Source: Cylindrospermum stagnale PCC 7417 (GTDB lineage Bacteria > Cyanobacteriota > Cyanobacteriia > Cyanobacteriales > Nostocaceae). Taken from it: a DNA stretch of 64,000 nt. The stretch is taken from contig NC_019757.1 in NCBI RefSeq assembly GCF_000317535.1, positions 1,339,001 to 1,403,000 of the forward strand. The letters are read 5' to 3'. Made by a program: the position numbers and the translations under genes. Below the pieces are notes generated by a model, which did not search any database, was not told the origin of the DNA, and was given only the letters and a program-made list of their open reading frames with translations. Below are positions 3,618-64,000 of this stretch, piece after piece. The stretch's first letter is position 1, and each line of letters starts with the position of its first letter.

Positions 3618-4628
3618 TCACCCTTGCTCGTATTGTATGGCTTTGGCATAATCACCCAAGGCGTAACAAGCGCCCTTGAGGCTAGCAAGGGATTGTTCTT
3701 CACTGCGGCGATCTTTCATCTCCCTAGCTAACAGCAAGCGTTCTTCATAATATTTAATCGCTTTGTTATAATCACCTAAAGCTTCACAAGCAACTCCTAA
3801 ACTGCCTAGAGACTGTTCCTGACTACGCTTGTCTTGAATTTGTCTGGCTAATTGCAACCGCTCTTCATAATATGTAATGGCTTTGGCATAATCACCCAAG
3901 GTATAGCAAGCATGACCTAGATTTTTCAGTACCTGAGTAGCACTGCGAGTATTGTTGAGGGTGCGTGCTAGTTTGACACACTGTTCATAATAGGCGATTG
4001 CTTTTGGGTAATCGTCCAAAGCGTACCAAGCATTACCGAGATTTTTCAGTACTTGTTCTTCTCCCCAGTTGTCTTTGAGTTCCTGTACGATTTCTAGGCT
4101 TTGCTGCTGATATTCGATCGCCTGTGTAAATTTGCCTGAGGCTTTATACACTAATCCCAGATTATTCAGTGCTGCTACTTGACTTCGCTTGTCTCGCATC
4201 TGCTGAGTCAGTTTCAAGCACTTTTCTAGAAACTCAATCGCTTTGTCGTATTCATTCAGATGACGGTAAGCATTACCTAAATGCGAAAGCACCTGCATCT
4301 CCACTAGCAAGTCTGATTGATCATTTTTCAAGGATAGACACTGCTGGGAGTAGGAAATAGTACTTTTATAGTCTCCGATGGTGTAAGCTGTCAGTGCTAA
4401 AAAAGCCAAAACTTGGGCTTGTCTTTGTAAATCCCCAGCTGCGCAAAATAATTGCAGGGATTGTTGTAACGACTTCGTCGCCGTAGTTAATTCACCAGCT
4501 TGTTGCTGTTGAATGCCTTGCTGCATTAGTGTGGTTGCTACTGATAATTGGTGATCACTTTCCTGTGATGGTGGCATTTCTGCTTCTGGATCTGAGCCGA
4601 ATTCATGGGTAATTGTGTTGCGCTTCAC
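3618..4628 (-). CDS. TPR-repeat protein, C-terminally truncated
   Basis: 336 residues: a short hydrophilic N-terminus (about 1-30) followed by seven to eight TPR units of about 40 residues with the period A...LG..Y..L.DY.KAI.YYE. Tetratricopeptide arrays mediate protein-protein contacts; in cyanobacteria such arrays often sit next to CHAT, kinase or NB-ARC domains, none of which is present. The frame stops in mid-repeat (YAKAIQYEQG) where other copies continue with YYEERLQLAR; one Tyr of the usual pair is missing, suggesting a small deletion near 3630. A decayed transposon end lies 230 bp downstream, so truncation by insertion or excision is plausible. Confidence 0.8.
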   Translation of the reverse strand: MKRNTITHEFGSDPEAEMPPSQESDHQLSVATTLMQQGIQQQQAGELTTATKSLQQSLQLFCAAGDLQRQAQVLAFLALTAYTIGDYKSTISYSQQCLSLKNDQSDLLVEMQVLSHLGNAYRHLNEYDKAIEFLEKCLKLTQQMRDKRSQVAALNNLGLVYKASGKFTQAIEYQQQSLEIVQELKDNWGEEQVLKNLGNAWYALDDYPKAIAYYEQCVKLARTLNNTRSATQVLKNLGHACYTLGDYAKAITYYEERLQLARQIQDKRSQEQSLGSLGVACEALGDYNKAIKYYEERLLLAREMKDRRSEEQSLASLKGACYALGDYAKAIQYEQG

Positions 4629-4832
4629 TGGTTTCAGGTGTGTTCTAAGTAGTTAAAAGGGAACTGTATCTTTTGAGCCATTATTCCAGCCGTCTTTCGA
4701 TATCAACCGATTATTTTTCAATTTAGGAATAGATTTAGTCTTCCCAAAACCAGAATATATATCTCACTCATTAGCTAGTGATTAGCCTTTTGTTAGTGTT
4801 GATTCATCATCAGATTAATCAGGAGATTGAAT

Positions 4833-5486
4833 ATGCAAAGACGCCTGGAACCAGAAGTTATGGATAGCCTGGAAGAAGCGATTGAGTATGACGCCATGGA
4901 TTTTACCGAGGTAAATACCACCTTTGCAAAACAAGCCATCGCTCTTGTGCCAACAGAAGAAGCTTTGGTGTTAGATGCTGGTACTGGTACTGGACGAATT
5001 CCGGTCTTAATGAGTCAAATGCGTCCGCAATGGCGATTCATCGCCATTGACTTAGCTGAAAATATGCTAAAAATTGCCGCACAACACTGGCAGCAGACTA
5101 GTTCGCCACAGCAAATTCGTTGGGAATTGGTGGATGCTAAACATTTGCCTTATCATGATGAACAGTTTGATCTAGTAATCTCAAATAGCCTGATCCACCA
5201 TTTACCCGAACCATTACTATTTTTTAGCGAGTTAAAACGCGTCACTAAACCTAATGGCAGTATCTTCATTCGAGATTTATTTCGTCCCGCTGATGAGGAA
5301 ACCATAAATGCCTTGGTTGATAGTATTGGTGTTGAATATAACCAGCATCAAACAAAATTATTTCGCGATTCTCTCCATGCCGCTCTCACACTAGATGAGG
5401 TGAATCAGTTGATTTCTGAAGTGGGTTTACCAAGAGTGAAAGTTTATCAATCAAGCGATCGCCATTGGACTGCGGAACAAAGTTGA
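4833..5486 (+). CDS. Class I SAM-dependent methyltransferase
   Basis: A 217-residue Rossmann-fold methyltransferase of the UbiE/COQ5-like type: motif I VLDAGTGTGRIP (about residues 46-57), an acidic ribose-binding residue in FIAIDLAENM, and the post-II segment FDLVISNSLIHHLPEP. The substrate cannot be inferred. I start at ATG 4833 because AGGAG at 4821-4825 gives a 7-nt spacing; the in-frame TTG at 4827 is too close to the SD. It stands alone between a TPR gene on the other strand and a repeat-rich gap. Confidence 0.88.
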   Translation: MQRRLEPEVMDSLEEAIEYDAMDFTEVNTTFAKQAIALVPTEEALVLDAGTGTGRIPVLMSQMRPQWRFIAIDLAENMLKIAAQHWQQTSSPQQIRWELVDAKHLPYHDEQFDLVISNSLIHHLPEPLLFFSELKRVTKPNGSIFIRDLFRPADEETINALVDSIGVEYNQHQTKLFRDSLHAALTLDEVNQLISEVGLPRVKVYQSSDRHWTAEQS

Positions 5487-5640
5487 ATTTCTATTGACTG
5501 CTACCCTCCCAGAATGCCTACCGCCCTACATTCACTAATTTAATTGCCGTATTTCTACGCTATTCTCAGTGTAGGCTATTTTCAAGGCAGTTACCAGAAT
5601 TGCGGAGAGGGGTAACTGGGGAAACTGCCACCGGGAAAAT

Positions 5641-5672
5641 GCGATCGCTTCCAGCGGGGCGTAGCCCATCGC
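5641..5672 (-). repeat. 32-bp GC-rich dispersed element, copy 1
   Basis: GCGATCGC at one end and GCCCATCGC at the other with a GGGGCG core; nearly the same 32 bp occurs at 32378-32409, 34561-34592 and 60873-60904 in alternating orientation. Further HIP1-type GC-rich fragments continue to about 5730. Copy 1 is intergenic. Confidence 0.8.
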
Positions 5673-5771
5673 CTCCGGCGGGCGCTCCGCGCCATCGCTC
5701 TTAGTGCGGGCGCTTTGCGCCATTGCGGGAACGGGTGCTGTTGCCCAACCCACCGCGCCAAAGGCATAGTG

Positions 5772-6121
5772 GAGGCTGGCTAATTCCAGTCAGCCTCGGC
5801 AACATACGCACCATCGCTGGGCATCATGCTCCATCCGTGTAGTCCTCCCCATTCCCAAATCAAGGATGTCGCCAAAGTACCATCCCAAATTATTAAAAGT
5901 TTTGCTCCTGGACGTTGTCAGCGGAGATCCTCCAAGAAATTAATAGTGTTTTCAGTGTCCCCTTTCTTCGCCGACCGGTGGCATTCCCCAACTTCTTGTC
6001 GGAGCATGTCTAAATTTACGATTATTGGCAGTAAATACACCAACGCTGTTTGGCGGGAAGAAGATAGCTTTCCCCGGATAAACGGGACAACCAATTTATA
6101 GGTGACAAAAGACAAATTCAC
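5772..6121 (-). pseudogene. Decayed IS630-like DDE transposase fragment
   Basis: On the minus strand the frame reads ENTINFLEDLR, a TGA stop at 5918-5920, then QRPGAKLLIIWDG, which matches the segment before and including the second catalytic Asp of DDE_3 (IS630/Tc1) transposases (FL..LR.QRPG.KLLIIWDG). The third catalytic position and most of the N-terminus are not recognisable, and no terminal repeats were found. The remainder of 5487-6300 contains the GC-rich element above and no convincing gene. Confidence 0.4.
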
Positions 6122-57176: not shown

Positions 57177-58014
57177 TTAAAATAAGTGGTTGGGGGGATC
57201 TTCGCGAGATCCAAAAGCTAACTGAACAGTATCGAGTTTGGATGCTGTTGTAGTCTGTTTAGGAAATAATATCTCCCCAAACTGAGCATATAAAGCCGGA
57301 ATCACCATTAATGTCAAGGCTGTAGAAGTGAATAAACCCCCCCAAAAACTACTACAGAAAGCGGTTGCAGAATTTCCTTACCCGGCCCACCCTCAATAAC
57401 TAAAGGAGCTAAACCCAAAGCTCAGGTAAAAGCTGTCATTAGAATAGCATTGAGTCTTTCTAGAGAACCTTTAATTAAAACTTCTCTTAATAACATACCT
57501 TCAGCAAATTTGCTGTTGTAATTGTCTACAAGTAGCAATCCGTTACGAGTAGCGACACCAAATAAAGTTACAAAACCAACTAATGAAGCAATAGAAATAA
57601 TTCCCCCAGTCAAAGCTACAGCAATAACTCCCCCTACCAAAGCCAAAGGTAGGTTAATCATAATCATGATAGTCGAGGGGATAGATTTTACTGAGATATA
57701 GGTAATTAACGTGATTGCTACACAAGCTATGGCGCTAAAAATTAAGATGTTTTGTGTAGCTTTTTCTTCTGCTTCAAACTATCCAGCATATTGGATATAG
57801 TAATCGCTTGAAGAAATTTGCACTTGTTGCTGAACTTTGGCTTTAATTTCGTTAACTACAGAACGTAAATCTCTACCTTTGGCGTTAGCAGTAACTACAA
57901 TCAAACGAGAAACATTCTCGCGGTTGATGGTATTTGGCTCAGTCCCATATTTAATTGTAGAAATTTGGGATAAAGGAATTTTATCACCAGCAGGAGTATC
58001 AATTAATTTTCCTC
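57177..58014 (-). pseudogene. CusA/CzcA-type RND pump, decayed fragment
   Basis: Recognisable pieces in order: KLIDTPAGDKIPLSQ, TANAKGRDLRSVVNE, YIQYAG then stop TAG (57779-57781, from expected CAG), FEAEEKATQNILIFS, NLPLALVGGVIAVAL, GVATRNGLLLVDNYN, then TGA (57422-57424), LGLAPLVIEGGPGKEILQP, a frameshift in a G7 run (C7 at 57337-57343), and LMVIPALYAQFGEILFP to a stop at 57177. The N-terminal two thirds are missing. Clearly inactive heavy-metal efflux transporter. Confidence 0.85.
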
Positions 58015-58062
58015 CACCCTCTTCCTTTCCTCCTCCGCGTCCTCTGCGCCTCTGCGGTTCGT
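58015..58062 (-). repeat. Dispersed CGCAGAGG-type repeat at the RND/MFP junction
   Basis: Direct-repeat sequence (CTCTGCGCCTCTGCGG and CCTCCGCGTCC) matching the one near 57020. It lies at the join between the broken RND pump and the fusion-protein relic, so it may mark the deletion. Confidence 0.5.
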
Positions 58063-58159
58063 TAAACTCCCTCTTCCCACCCAAAACCCATCCATAGCCA
58101 ACACCCCCCCAAACAGCAAAACCCAGGGGAGTAATGACGCACCAGTAGTGCCGAGTTCC

Positions 58160-58945
58160 TAGAGTTCTCCAGTTCAGCTTTCACCGCGACAACCCGCGCT
58201 TCACCAACCACAGCACCAATTACAGCAATACGTCCGCTAAAGCTTTGATTTGGCAAACTTGTCACTGTAACTCTGACACTTTGGCCAACTTTGATTTTCT
58301 TTAAATCTTTTTCATAAACATTAGCTGTCGCCAACACTCGACTATCATCTAAAATCGTCATCAACGGTTTGCTATCCGAATCAACCGTTACCGTTTCCCC
58401 CAGAGTCACCGCCCTTTCTGCAACTATGCCAGAAATCGGTGCAACCACCGTTACCAGTCCCTTAGCATTGGCACCTTAGCATTGGCAATAGTTCCCAATT
58501 GTTGCAACCGCGCCTCATAAGCAGCACTGCTGAGACGAATTCGCGATTTAGCCACAAAAACAGATGCTTGAGCGCGTTTGAGTTGAGCTTCAGCTTCGAT
58601 GACTTCCCGGCGGCTAGAGGCTTTAATGAGTTGAGATTTACCAGCGGCTAGATGAGCTTGAGATTCCAGCATTTGGCGACGTGGCAGCGCTCCGGCATTC
58701 ACCAAATCGCGATCTGCGCTTCGCAGCAGCGCTTCGCGATCGCGATCGTACTGTTCTTGAGCTACTTTAAGTTCAATTCTAGCTTGGGCAATGTCAGCAG
58801 TAGCAATTTTACCCTGACGTTCTAGGTTTTGTTGAGCTAGCTGCAAATCAGCTAAAGCTTGTTGCCAATCTGCCTGCGCTTGAGCGCTTTTTTCCTGAGA
58901 GCTAACGCGCAATTCTGCTAAATCGGGACTAGATAAAACCGCAAC
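58160..58945 (-). pseudogene. CusB/HlyD-type membrane fusion protein, frameshifted
   Basis: The adaptor sequence begins at LSSPDLAELRVSSQEK and runs through a long coiled coil (about 58840-58500), then the frame breaks and a second frame gives VAPISGIVAERAVTLGE and a beta-barrel region. The break is an exact 14-bp duplication (58460-58473, 58474-58487); removing one copy restores TIANAKGLVTVVAPISG. The 5' signal region and the 3' end are also missing. Confidence 0.85.
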
Positions 58946-59249
58946 AAAAATGAAATCAGAATGAAATTGGCCCTTTTTTAGCAATTAATTCCTAAAAATG
59001 CGATTTTTTCTGTATTTTTATCATTTCAAATTTAATATGGAATACACCTTCTGCAAGAATAAGCGTAAAAATTTCAACAACCAAATTACAGATTTTTTAT
59101 TGTTGATAGACAAACTTAAGTAACACTAAGTCATTTTTTGAACTTAAGGATTGTCTTGGTTTATATGCTACGATAAATATCAATTAATCTCTCTAAAGAT
59201 AGTTGATTGCTTCAAATATTTTATCTACTAAGCTTAATACCATATTTTT

Positions 59250-59366
59250 GGATGTTTGGACACATCCGATAGGAAGATGACTAGAAAATATAGTAGATTT
59301 AAATTAATCCTGGTGTGTCGAATAACTGCTTTCTATGGAGGTTTAGCCGAGGGCTAAACCTTTTTT
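59250..59366 (+). ncRNA. Tandem small-RNA unit 1
   Basis: 5' box GGATGTTTGGACACATCC then GATAGGAAGATGA (59250-59280), AT-rich AAATTAAT, and a 9-bp terminator stem at 59340-59348/59352-59360 with T6. A putative independently transcribed RNA of about 50-70 nt; the 5' end cannot be placed from sequence. Confidence 0.45.
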
Positions 59367-59486
59367 ATTTTTAATAAAATAATGCTGCGATATCAGCATT
59401 GATAATATTTACCTACCTCCTCTCGGCTGATTACTTACTCGGCTAAAAGAGCTAAATTATTCTCACTAACATCTACTTTTACTCAA

Positions 59487-59514
59487 GGCTTGGTGGTGCA
59501 CCAAGCCGTTTTTT
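59487..59514 (+). terminator. Orphan terminator hairpin
   Basis: GGCTTGGTG (59487-59495) pairs with CACCAAGCC (59499-59507), followed by GTTTTTT. Resembles the 3' end of the array units but lacks the 5' box, so a decayed unit is likely. Confidence 0.55.
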
Positions 59515-59796
59515 ATTTTTGTTTGGTTAATTTATTGCCAGTCATCATTACCCCCGGACAATTACTGGAAGTTATAAATAATATATACAACTGGAAGCCA
59601 ATAGAATTATTGTTACCAAAAACCTGGAAATTTTCACCAGTTATCTTTTTTAAAGCCCTCTAATTCATTGGTACATTATGCTTTTTAGTTAATTATTGAG
59701 TTGAGATAATTAAGTATAATTTAATCTTGAATCTAGGAAATACTAGTATTAAATAAAATTTTTCTCAGTATGTAGATTCATCTCTAACAGTTGGTA

Positions 59797-59912
59797 GGAT
59801 ATTTGTACACATCCTATAGATAGATGAACTTAAGTCAGAGAAAGTCTATATTAATTGCATATGGTAAACACTTGGTATATATCTAGGTTTGGCTTGGAGC
59901 CAAGCCTTTTTT
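59797..59912 (+). ncRNA. Tandem small-RNA unit 2
   Basis: 5' box with TACACATCCTATAGATAGAT (59805-59824), ATTAATTGC, ATGGTAAACACTTGGTATA, then stem GGCTTG (59891-59896)/CAAGCC (59901-59906) and T6. Confidence 0.45.
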
Positions 59913-60096
59913 GTAAATAAGATCCAGGTTACATTCAAGAAATTTTTCTGATGTATTTCCTGAATGTAACTTTGTCTAATTTGGTAATTTACATCCTGGC
60001 TCAATGTTCAGTCTTGCTCAGATCATTCTCTAGATAGTTTTACTATCTATTCTCAGAGGTTACTATTCGGTGATTAATGCCTGAAAAACGTGTATT

Positions 60097-60129
60097 TACC
60101 CTGGAAATATATCCAGGGTATTATTTTTT
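60097..60129 (+). terminator. Orphan terminator-like hairpin
   Basis: TACCCTGG (60097-60104) pairs with CCAGGGTA (60113-60120), loop of 8, followed by TTATTTTTT. No 5' box precedes; possibly another decayed unit or an unrelated short RNA. Confidence 0.45.
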
Positions 60130-60299
60130 AGTAAATTTTAGATTTTGGTTTGATATATATCATAGACAAATCATCTCTCCTCGAAGCGAGAATAAATTCA
60201 TTACCGATGTTTGTCTGCACTAAATTTATCGAAGTTTGCTAGTGAACTAAACCTTTTATTATTTCTGAGATCGGGTGACTGATTTGATATCATTTTTAA

Positions 60300-60414
60300 G
60301 AAAATTTGTACACACCAAATAGGAAGATGAACAGAAGTAAAAGTGAGTATAAATTAACTTCATATGGTAAACACCTGGTATACATCAAGGCTTGGCTACG
60401 AGTTAAGCCTTTTT
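60300..60414 (+). ncRNA. Tandem small-RNA unit 3
   Basis: Degenerate 5' box ending AATAGGAAGATGAAC, then ATATGGTAAACACCTGGTAT, stem at 60389-60397/60401-60409 (9 bp with two G-U) and T5. A short open frame over this copy (60306 onwards) is accidental. Confidence 0.45.
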
Positions 60415-60501
60415 CCTACTTTTGGTATATACTTAAATTAATTTATACTCCAAAAGTAGAATCTTTCCTCATCTCACCTAGTAGTTCCTTATCAGTTTTG
60501 A

Positions 60502-60621
60502 GGATATTTGGACACATCCTATAGGAAGATGATATGTGAGCCGAGTAGAACTAAATTAATTTAGTACGTTGTTAAGCACAGCAATTATAAAGGTTTGGTT
60601 CGCGACCAAACCTTTTTTTTT
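60502..60621 (+). ncRNA. Tandem small-RNA unit 4
   Basis: Best 5' box: GGACACATCCTATAGGAAGA within 60510-60530, AACTAAATTAATTTAG, then stem GGTTTGGT (60592-60599)/ACCAAACC (60605-60612) followed by T9. Confidence 0.45.
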
Positions 60622-60656
60622 GAATATGTAAACATATAAGGGACTATCAGTTTTTA

Positions 60657-60771
60657 GAATATTTGGACACACCCTATAGGAAGATGAACTAAAGCGAGAG
60701 TCGGTCTAAATTAATCTTGGTGTAGTAAATGCTTGGTATGGATAGAGGCTTGCTTGAGTCAAGCCTTTTTT
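60657..60771 (+). ncRNA. Tandem small-RNA unit 5
   Basis: Box with CACCCTATAGGAAGATGAAC, CTAAATTAATCTTGG, GTAAATGCTTGGTATGG, stem GGCTTG (60747-60752)/CAAGCC (60760-60765), T6. The spacing to unit 4 is 155 bp; the gaps between units shorten toward 3'. Confidence 0.45.
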
Positions 60772-60872
60772 CATGTTTGCAGCACAACTTAGAAAACTGC
60801 TTTTACTGTCCAACAAGGGTGCGTAGACGCAGATTGGCTGATTGTCAGCGATGGGCTACACCCCGCCTTCTT

Positions 60873-60904
60873 GCGATGGGCTGCGCCCCGCTGGAAGCGA
60901 TCGC
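60873..60904 (+). repeat. 32-bp GC-rich dispersed element, copy 4
   Basis: Begins GCGATGGGCTGCGCCCCG and ends GCGATCGC; the reverse complement of the copy at 5641 with one mismatch. A partial further copy precedes at about 60849-60867. Intergenic, before rtcB. Confidence 0.85.
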
Positions 60905-60997
60905 ATTTACGTTGCTCTAATTCCGCGATTTCTCATCACCAAGGCTAATGCTGACGTTAAAAATCTAGTCAAGGATGCTACCACTGATGGAAAAAAA

Positions 60998-61027
60998 TGT
61001 AGAGACGTTCCATGGAACGTCTCTACA
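60998..61027. repeat. Perfect 30-bp palindrome
   Basis: TGTAGAGACGTTC followed by its complement around CCATGG; a perfect palindrome over 30 bp, related to 57109-57138. A dispersed element typical of Nostoc-like genomes; no gene in 60772-61091. Confidence 0.85.
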
Positions 61028-61091
61028 AGGGTTATGGATAATGCAGATTTAAATTCGGTCGATGTCTATTCAACCAAGAACAAAATCATCC

Positions 61092-62531
61092 CTACGCCTT
61101 AAACGTCAAAACCGGACTCAACCGCGCCACAACACCCACCATTTCCGCTTCAACTTGGATATCAATCACAGACTGAATCGGTTTGTAGGCTGCGGGTGCT
61201 TCCTCAATGCGGCGTTCTTCGCGCAAGGTGATGCAGTCAACTCCGGTTAATCCTAGTTCGGCTTCAGTTTCCGATGCACCTCTGCGGTTAAGGTCGAAAC
61301 GAGTCCGAATTCTTCCCGCTCCATGTGATGCAGAATGAGAATATGCTGGATTACCTTTGCCTACCATCAAGTAAGAATAATCACCCATCGAACCAGGGAT
61401 AATTACTGGCTGTCCTGGATGAGCCGGACAAGCACCTTTTCGCGTTACCCAACCCTGACCGAATGGTAAGGTGATATTGTGAGGCAAATCATAAACTAGC
61501 GGTGCTTCTACATCACCGTAAACTTCCCGCAACCGCAACCGCAGCAATTCCGCTAACAGCAGACGATTGATAAAGCCGTAGTTAGCAGCAGTTGCTTCCG
61601 CTTGCAGATAACCGGCAACAAGTTCGGGGTGAGAATGAGTAGAAAGGGGAAAAATTTGAGATTCAGGATACTTTAAACCCTTTTGCCATGCGGCTTTAGC
61701 TTGATCTCGCCACATTCCCCCGATATATTTACCCACATTCCGCGAACCAGAGTGAATCATCAAAGCTAGCTGTCCCTCATGCACTCCCCAGGCGTAGGCT
61801 AAAGCGCGATTTTCAACTTTGTCAACTCGCTGCACTTCGACAAAATGATTACCACCTCCTATGGTTGCTAGTCCACCATCGCGCACTATTCCCGCATCGG
61901 GAATCAGTTCTTCTGGTGCAAGTCGCCAGTCACCATCCATTGAACCGCCTAAAAAAATGTTGTCGCATTCTTGCGAAAGTTGTTGCCAGTTAGACTTGAC
62001 AAAACTCCCTGTAGGTGAGTCTAGCATCGCATCCAACCAACCAGGAACTCCATACTGGAACAGCGATTGCATGGTTTTGGCTGTCATGGTGACATCTCGC
62101 GTACCGAAGAAGTAATCTCCCTTGATTAGTTCGACAAAGCGATCGCGTTTTGCTAAGAATTGATCAATAGTCAAATCGGCGACGTGTAAACGCATCCCGC
62201 AATTAATATCAGAACCGACAGCGGCCGGAATAACTTGTCCTACGGTTTCCACTACGGAACCAATAGCGATACCTGCATCACCAGGGTGAAAGTCAGGGGT
62301 AGCACAAGCACGACAAACGCAACCACCAGCAGGGTGGCGGACGTTTGCTAAATTCGCTAGCTGTTTCAGTGCCTTTGCTTCTACAGGGAAACCTTCCGGT
62401 AGTAGGACTTCGGCCGCTGGAGCATTTGGAGAATTAGTTAAACGCACAGAATAAGTGCTGTTTTGATAACTTACATCTAACCCCTGACGCCCTAAAGCAC
62501 GCAGGAGACGTTGGAGATTTTTTGGCTGCAT
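61092..62531 (-). CDS. rtcB: RtcB-type RNA ligase
   Basis: 479 residues. RtcB joins 2',3'-cyclic phosphate and 5'-OH RNA ends, acting in tRNA splicing or RNA repair. Metal and GTP sites are visible: GSDINCGMR, GGGNHF, HSGSRNVG, RKGACPAHPG, PGSMGDYSY and the guanylylated-His region ASHGAGR. The length fits the long RtcB class. I start at ATG 62531 (MQPKNLQRLL); a TTG at 62555 adds eight residues. No archease or RtcA neighbour is present. Confidence 0.93.
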   Translation of the reverse strand: MQPKNLQRLLRALGRQGLDVSYQNSTYSVRLTNSPNAPAAEVLLPEGFPVEAKALKQLANLANVRHPAGGCVCRACATPDFHPGDAGIAIGSVVETVGQVIPAAVGSDINCGMRLHVADLTIDQFLAKRDRFVELIKGDYFFGTRDVTMTAKTMQSLFQYGVPGWLDAMLDSPTGSFVKSNWQQLSQECDNIFLGGSMDGDWRLAPEELIPDAGIVRDGGLATIGGGNHFVEVQRVDKVENRALAYAWGVHEGQLALMIHSGSRNVGKYIGGMWRDQAKAAWQKGLKYPESQIFPLSTHSHPELVAGYLQAEATAANYGFINRLLLAELLRLRLREVYGDVEAPLVYDLPHNITLPFGQGWVTRKGACPAHPGQPVIIPGSMGDYSYLMVGKGNPAYSHSASHGAGRIRTRFDLNRRGASETEAELGLTGVDCITLREERRIEEAPAAYKPIQSVIDIQVEAEMVGVVARLSPVLTFKA

Positions 62532-62907: not shown

Positions 62908-63102
62908 ATGACACTCCAACTGACAGTTCCCAACATGGCTTGTTCTGCTTGTGCTAACAACATCACCAAAGCACTCCAGACAGTCGATGCTAACGCCAGT
63001 ATTCAAGCTGATCCTCAAACCAAGCTTGTCAGCGTAGAAACTCAAGCTTCAGAAACAGCAATTAAGGAAGCGTTGGCTGCTGCTGGCTATCCCGCTAACT
63101 AA
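62908..63102 (+). CDS. HMA-domain copper chaperone
   Basis: 64 residues, a complete heavy-metal-associated domain. MxCxxC is MACSAC (Cys12, Cys15), with the typical NNITKAL helix and AAAGYPAN end. CopZ/Atx1-like proteins pass Cu(I) to P-type ATPases, and one follows 160 bp downstream. ATG 62908; SD weak. Confidence 0.93.
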   Translation: MTLQLTVPNMACSACANNITKALQTVDANASIQADPQTKLVSVETQASETAIKEALAAAGYPAN

Positions 63103-63261
63103 TTTCCTTTCTGAGTCAAGATGTGCTAACTGCATAGAACTGACGCGTTGAGTACCAGATTTAGGGGCAATTCATGAATTGCCCCTAAGGTAAATTGAGG
63201 GTTTCGTGTCCGTAAACGTAAGTCCTATTGCACTCAAAACTCAACACTTAAAATTACTGAT

Positions 63262-64000
63262 ATGGATAATCTGACGCTCAAGCTCCGGGGCATGAGTTGT
63301 GCTTCCTGCGCCAATAATGTCGAACAGGCGATTCTCTCTGTTCCTGGGGTGATTGATTGCAACGTTAACTTTGGAGCAGAGCAAGCAACCATTAAGTACG
63401 ATCGCCAACGAGTCAATTTAGAGAAAATCCAAACCGCTATCGATGCAGCGGGATACTCATCTTACTCACTCGATGATCAAAGCATGGGTGAAGACGATGC
63501 CGAGAAAGCGAGTAGGCTAGCAGAAAACCGGGAACTTACCCTCAAGGTAATGGTAGGCGGTGTAATTAGCATTTTCCTGTTTTTGGGGTCATTGCCAATG
63601 ATGACTGGGCTAAATTTACCTTTGATTCCCGGATTTTTGCATCATCCTTGGGTGCAGTTGGTGCTAACAACTCCCGTTGAGTTTTGGTGTGGTGGGTCTT
63701 TTTTCCGCAATGCTTGGAAGTCTCTTAAACGCCGTACAGCAACGATGGATACACTGATTGTGTTGGGTACGGGTGCAGCTTATCTCTATTCTGTGTTTGT
63801 GACGATTTTTCCTGGGTTTTTGCGGGATAAAGGCTTAGAAGGTCACGTTTATTATGAGGTGGCGGCGATTGTCGTCACCTTAATTCTTTTGGGGCGATTT
63901 TTGGAAAGTCGCGCTAAGGGACAAACTTCGGCAGCTATCCACAAACTCATGGGACTGCAACCGAGAAATGCCAGAGTGATTCGGGGTGGGGTGGAGATGG
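63262..64000 (+). CDS. Copper-type P1B-ATPase, N-terminal part (runs off window)
   Basis: The 246 residues available include one HMA domain (GMSCASC, Cys13 and Cys16; ends AAGYSSYSL about 75) and the first transmembrane helices (LTLKVMVGGVISIFLFLGS about 95-115, then HHPWVQLVLTTPVEFWCGG and TMDTLIVLGTGAAYLYS). The CPC and DKTG motifs would be beyond 64000. Its sequence style fits the PacS/CopA copper pump. Together with the chaperone it forms a small copper-handling unit. Confidence 0.92.
   Translation, partial: MDNLTLKLRGMSCASCANNVEQAILSVPGVIDCNVNFGAEQATIKYDRQRVNLEKIQTAIDAAGYSSYSLDDQSMGEDDAEKASRLAENRELTLKVMVGGVISIFLFLGSLPMMTGLNLPLIPGFLHHPWVQLVLTTPVEFWCGGSFFRNAWKSLKRRTATMDTLIVLGTGAAYLYSVFVTIFPGFLRDKGLEGHVYYEVAAIVVTLILLGRFLESRAKGQTSAAIHKLMGLQPRNARVIRGGVEM

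Follow-up and report, generated by a model that had tools for sequence, protein, structure and literature searches.

Seven head-to-tail units occupy positions 59255-60771, on the + strand, of the window (the whole 64,000-nucleotide stretch of Cylindrospermum stagnale PCC 7417 DNA analysed here); five are strong (types B, C2, C, D and E) and two are degenerate (G and X). The array probably encodes divergent sister trans-acting sRNAs, paralogues of the sRNA 4547237r, which would depend on one activator, be induced together under stress and act on separate mRNA targets. The units, their promoter geometry, the covariation, the cores and the unit order were read from the sequence, whereas co-activation and mRNA pairing are what we infer.

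Layout of the array

The units follow a common plan: a 42-nt box, a TANANT -10 hexamer usually 19 nt further on, a core of about 25 nt, a terminator hairpin and a T tract. A clear terminator hairpin is found in every unit except the decayed unit X. The predicted RNAs are about 50-60 nt long, their 5' ends being predictions (+/-1-2 nt). With several units on one strand, each with a promoter and a terminator, the locus has the sequence features of a tandem array of sibling sRNA genes. No recognisable gene overlaps it (59250-60771), and the only reading frames that do are two mechanical ORFs of 72 and 63 aa. The features are the following.

59239..59366, + strand: unit B; box 59239-59280; -10 TAAATT 59300-59305; predicted RNA about 59312-59366, with core GGTGTGTCGAATAACTGCTT and terminator GGTTTAGCC/GGCTAAACC; fold z -2.27
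59392..59513, + strand: unit G, with a degenerate box; -10 TAAATT 59453-59458; predicted RNA about 59465-59513, with hairpin GGCTTGGTG/CACCAAGCC; fold z -3.73; whole-unit model E 3.2e-6 (59408-59513)
59786..59912, + strand: unit C2; box 59786-59827; -10 TATATT 59847-59852; predicted RNA about 59859-59912, with core ATATGGTAAACACTTGGTATATAT; fold z -2.72; whole-unit model E 8.7e-19
60097..60130, + strand: hairpin with T tract, outside the sRNA family; stem fold z -3.51; no match to the whole-unit model
60148..60259, + strand: unit X, decayed; TAAATT 60193-60198; RNA-like segment 60205-60259; whole-unit model E 1.7e-4
60289..60414, + strand: unit C; box 60289-60330; -10 TAAATT 60350-60355; predicted RNA about 60362-60414, with core ATATGGTAAACACCTGGTATA; fold z -2.16
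60491..60621, + strand: unit D; box 60491-60532; -10 TAAATT 60552-60557; predicted RNA about 60564-60621, with core GTACGTTGTTAAGCACAGCAATTAT; fold z -4.00; best RF02596 match in the window (34.3 bits, gathering cut-off 35.7)
60646..60771, + strand: unit E; box 60646-60687; -10 TAAATT 60707-60712; predicted RNA about 60719-60771, with core GGTGTAGTAAATGCTTGGTAT; no RF02596 match of its own; fold z only -0.42

Degenerate units were recognised with R1, a covariance model of the whole unit built from 94 units. It matched eight places in the C. stagnale genome, namely the five strong units, two further units of the array and one copy 770 kb away; the training set includes the five strong units and this distant copy (type A), so that these six match by construction. 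Units lacking a detected hairpin, containing N, falling outside 90-140 nt or identical to another were dropped before alignment, and alignment A2 holds 94 of the 98 thinned units, four untyped ones having been removed by hand.

The original prediction had described five units in this region, all of which were found where it placed them by sequence reading and by alignment; these are the strong ones, but the array has seven units by R1. Of the two hairpins that it took for decayed units, the one at 59487 does sit inside a degenerate unit, G, which has counterparts after type B in other genomes (L087:1967, L160:1825, L184:5839 and L192:7964). The one at 60097 belongs to no unit by R1, and the second degenerate unit is instead X, where no stable hairpin was detected (fold z 0.10). 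The stretch around the 60097 hairpin (60018-60139) is about 80% alike in two Cylindrospermum relatives.

Relationship to RF02596 and 4547237r

A search of the window against Rfam at the families' own cut-offs gave no match. Under permissive settings, RF02596 (cyano_het_sRNA) matched six of the seven units, all below its cut-off of 35.7 bits: D (34.3 bits), B (27.3), C2 (24.7), X (22.8, at 60204-60257), C (19.2) and G (17.7, hairpin only). Unit E was not matched even permissively, and an additional match of 23.8 bits was the hairpin of unit D on the opposite strand. By score, then, membership of RF02596 is not reached in the window (34.3 bits at best). In other genomes, four units of type D or C2, at loci L038, L087 and L134, do pass the gathering cut-off (36.0-37.3 bits).

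The C. stagnale genome has one strong RF02596 copy, of type A (72.8 bits, contig C2:628774-628829, minus strand), which is the copy 770 kb from the array. It carries the same box (C2:628862-628902, E 3.7e-11 with the box-only model R2), and the array units are therefore best seen as its paralogues. They share with it both the box and the RNA layout, and alignment A2 spans all types. Compared with RF02596 and 4547237r, the array units are alike in promoter box, -10 geometry, core followed by terminator hairpin, and size class; they differ in that RF02596 is described as a single RNA, whereas they have other cores and stay below the cut-off in the window. This suggests that RF02596 is part of a larger clan, many members of which fall below the present cut-off.

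Type A can be connected to a published transcript. In Nostoc PCC 7120, Table 1 of PMC4734099 lists NsiR8 as 4547556r and, 319 nt apart from it, the sRNA 4547237r with a predicted length of 51 nt. At locus L254, NsiR8 starts at 4133 and RF02596 at 4452, on one strand and 319 nt apart (locus span 4133-4508). Position and size together strongly indicate that type A is 4547237r. As reported in PMC4734099, 4547237r is transcribed from a mapped start and appears to be induced in prolonged nitrogen deficiency and in stationary phase. NsiR8 lies just upstream of type A, on the same strand, at 7 of 12 type-A loci at the Rfam cut-off (1/1 and 6/11), for instance at L036:6775-7313, and the regulation of the two may be linked. 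NsiR8 (RF02593), described as HetR-dependent in PMC4734099, differs from type A, which it adjoins, in being longer (172 positions); it had no match in the window at the Rfam cut-off.

The promoter box

Over the wider set of units, the box has the consensus ATCAG-N-TTTTAGGATATTTGGACACATCCTATAGGAAGATGA; in the five strong units it is followed by 19 variable nucleotides and then by TAAATTAAT or a variant of it. Box and -10 were 19 nt apart in 186 of 265 box hits, 20 nt apart in 58, of which 50 are type A, and 16 nt apart in 3; no -10 hexamer was found for the other 18. If type A is 4547237r, its transcription begins close to the first base of RF02596 and 6-7 nt past TANANT; the hexamer is then the -10 element, and the palindrome of the box falls near -42.5. 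From the beginning of TTTGG within the box to the predicted RNA start is about 57 nt. The box itself was also considered as -35/-10 (TATAGG), but this reading was given up, as the paralogue's mapped start agrees with the downstream TANANT. The 5' box of the original prediction is indeed common to all five units, but we read it as promoter rather than as the 5' end of the RNA. NtcA-type sites (GTAN8TAC) were absent from 59200-60800.

Scanning with a position matrix of the box yielded 212 hits, 200 of them unique, spread over 99 loci, whereas one block-shuffled version of these 946 kb yielded none. A few hits at the bottom of the score range are not followed by a unit. The box-only model R2, made from 45 sequences, was searched against three Cylindrospermum genomes, with the 150 best candidates scored per genome. 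This bears on a check proposed with the original prediction, that the box be looked for elsewhere: all matches with E < 0.02 were units of the sRNA family, and the remainder were partial and chance-like (E 0.1 or worse). R2 missed units G and X in the C. stagnale genome, their boxes having degraded too far. As R2 matched only family units in the three genomes, the box is not a general stress promoter and, judging from sequence, looks dedicated to these RNAs. Its presence in all of them could partly reflect common descent.

Conservation of unit order, cores and terminators

R1 matched 136 of 217 genomes and 31 of 56 genera across the family, and 26 of 291 genomes across the order, all 26 in the family of the window; these searches used filters that lose weak matches. 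A further 110 named loci were collected with a pattern for the A and D cores and are therefore no measure of prevalence; 109 of them come from taxa that we take to be Nostocales and one is labelled 'uncultured cyanobacterium'.

The unit types are A, which occurs alone, B, C2, C, D, E and F, with the degenerate G after B. The order B-C2-C-D-E-F on one strand was kept at all 40 loci with at least three typed units, to which this count is restricted (L192, on the same contig as L040, was dropped), as compared with a mean of 3.2 and a maximum of 9 after shuffling; some of the strains are close relatives, so that the 40 loci are not all independent. The genes flanking the array differ between genome groups, and the array hence looks like a module of its own. 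Arrays elsewhere keep to a single strand, but two members of one genus with small genomes (3.8-4.1 Mb) have two units on opposite strands with about 55 nt between them, at G015:C1:1579280-1579559 and G196:C1:1407495-1407778.

When units of the same type were compared in pairs, mean identity was.84-.95 for the core (.59 in type F, whose cores are poorly conserved) and.52-.76 for the spacer; the downstream flank was near chance (.32-.35). The values for the box (.62-.83) and the -10 (.91-.98) are partly inflated, since units were picked by box score and -10 pattern; the core was unused in selecting units but was used in sorting them into types (70% similarity). Each of the types A-E has a core that hardly changes over many genera, and the types differ from one another, C and C2 being one base apart.

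The original prediction had proposed that terminators which vary in sequence yet keep their pairing reflect selection for RNA function, and the stems do covary. In the 94-unit alignment, 96.7% of stem cells were paired, and 83 cells were changed on both sides, such changes occurring in six of the nine pairs. None of 500 shuffles, a test that ignores the relatedness of the units, scored as high on any of five measures, and slid versions of the stem were all lower on all measures. Compared with shuffled versions, the predicted RNAs of units B, C2, C and D fold better (z -2.16 to -4.00), and that of E, the fifth strong unit, does not (z -0.42).

Proposed function and alternative explanations

We propose that one dedicated activator would bind the box (TTTGNACACATCCTATAGGAAGATGA), with the palindrome TCCTATAGGA centred near -42.5 as its putative site, which is the position of a class II activator. 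It would switch on all members together in prolonged nitrogen stress or stationary phase; this induction is carried over to the array units from one paralogue because the box is common to them. Each RNA would then use its exposed core to pair with a separate set of mRNAs, and the array would turn one signal into several parallel post-transcriptional outputs. More tentatively, and with rather less confidence than in the proposal as a whole, six or more sister sRNAs under one dedicated stress activator may have kept their cores fixed ever since many Nostocaceae genera shared an ancestor, because each serves its own ancient target set. Late nitrogen starvation, stationary phase or the formation of resting cells (akinetes) could be the settings for such sets.

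Targets were sought in six genomes as complements of the C core (20 nt) and of the D core (17 nt), with up to 3 mismatches allowed for each. For the C core, the sole non-self site common to four genomes is on the strand opposite the coding frame of a conserved protein, and a second site, in two Cylindrospermum genomes, falls within a coding frame in the sense orientation. The other inspected sites were found in single genomes, and that at L275 in G001 precedes a start codon by about 15 nt; the reversed-pattern control gave 2 hits in the six genomes. The D core gave 164 hits, self hits included, versus 120 for its reversed-pattern control; one exact extra match, in G100 (L287), was the only D site inspected among the matches listed. 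We judge both searches negative, and this failure counts against the target part of the sister-sRNA proposal.

It also favours the view that the RNAs are made and co-regulated but are mainly redundant, acting through gene dosage, or that they titrate a protein or another RNA. The cores look related by eye (a GTTAAGCACT / GTAAACACTT / GTAAATGCTT theme), and the discussion in PMC9045159 describes sRNAs encoded by several repeats as mostly redundant. Pure dosage, however, would predict something other than cores of types A-E that are nearly invariant across genera yet mutually different, and we consider this view unlikely. That the units might be inert repeats, derived from a mobile element or left as the terminators of old transcripts without RNA function, could be argued from the two degenerate units and the varying intervals between units; with the order kept across genera, stems that covary, a core whose conservation exceeds that of box and flanks, and a published transcript for one paralogue, it is very improbable. 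Hardly any weight can be given to very short, nearly leaderless peptides as the products, such as MVNTWYI in type C. The predicted start of C types does have an ATG no more than 3 nt away, and the T/C difference between C and C2 is synonymous in the MVNTWYI frame. Judged by eye, however, no corresponding frame exists in the other types, stop codons are not conserved and the frames continue into the terminators, and the peptide reading was rejected on these grounds.

The layout had been likened to the NsiR1 array. In Nostoc PCC 7120, NsiR1 is reported to occur in 12 copies upstream of hetF, seven of them identical, antisense to the hetF leader (PMC9045159). The likeness holds for tandem short sRNA genes with their own promoters and terminators in heterocystous cyanobacteria, and nothing closer is supported. 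RF02399 (NsiR1) had no match in the window at the gathering cut-off and none in 58900-61100 at E up to 5. The NsiR1 promoter motif, DIF1 (TCCGGA, near -35), has no occurrence in 59200-60800, where two one-mismatch sites both lie outside the boxes. The same genome has an NsiR1 array at L084 (C2:1499000-1509000), where nine RF02399 matches (49.0-71.8 bits, 3738-5901) form tandem, TCCGGA-bearing units upstream of a hetF-like gene, which lies 102 kb from the window array. A CHAT-domain search gave one ORF of 844-853 aa (CHAT 93-100 bits) in each of three genomes; that of C. stagnale has 844 aa, a CHAT match and a TPR match below the cut-off. We took this ORF as hetF from its size, domain and NsiR1 neighbours. 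The window array does not stand directly upstream of and antisense to it, and the possibility that the array is NsiR1, HetR-dependent and heterocyst-specific, can scarcely be entertained: NsiR1 homology is refuted by RF02399, DIF1 and the separate NsiR1 array. The window array looks distinct from the better-known array that its layout resembles.

No description of the sister-sRNA array was found in the open-access literature searched, nor were the names RF02596 and cyano_het_sRNA; Table S3 of PMC4734099 may include an array unit. Against the mostly redundant multicopy sRNAs described so far stand clearly different sisters, kept in order over many genera, with a box found at no other gene in three genomes. 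The array thus offers a clean system for studying how duplicated sRNAs divide labour and which signal drives them, in hosts whose cell differentiation is a model for bacterial multicellularity.

Neighbouring genes

The next recognised gene is rtcB, on the other strand, which ends at 61092. It neighbours 8 of 51 array loci, many of these loci being 8 kb stretches that possibly end before the neighbours. The original prediction had hinted at metal stress, a hint that rests only on neighbouring genes, which differ between array loci; a metal link from the copper and efflux neighbours was rejected because the flanking genes vary. Upstream of the array, several short frames in 57422-58984 hold CusB/HlyD-like and AcrB-like fragments, which look like a metal-efflux operon in decay. 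Downstream of rtcB, at 62908-63999, two frames carry heavy-metal-associated (HMA) domains; one would be a copper chaperone and the other the beginning of a transport ATPase.
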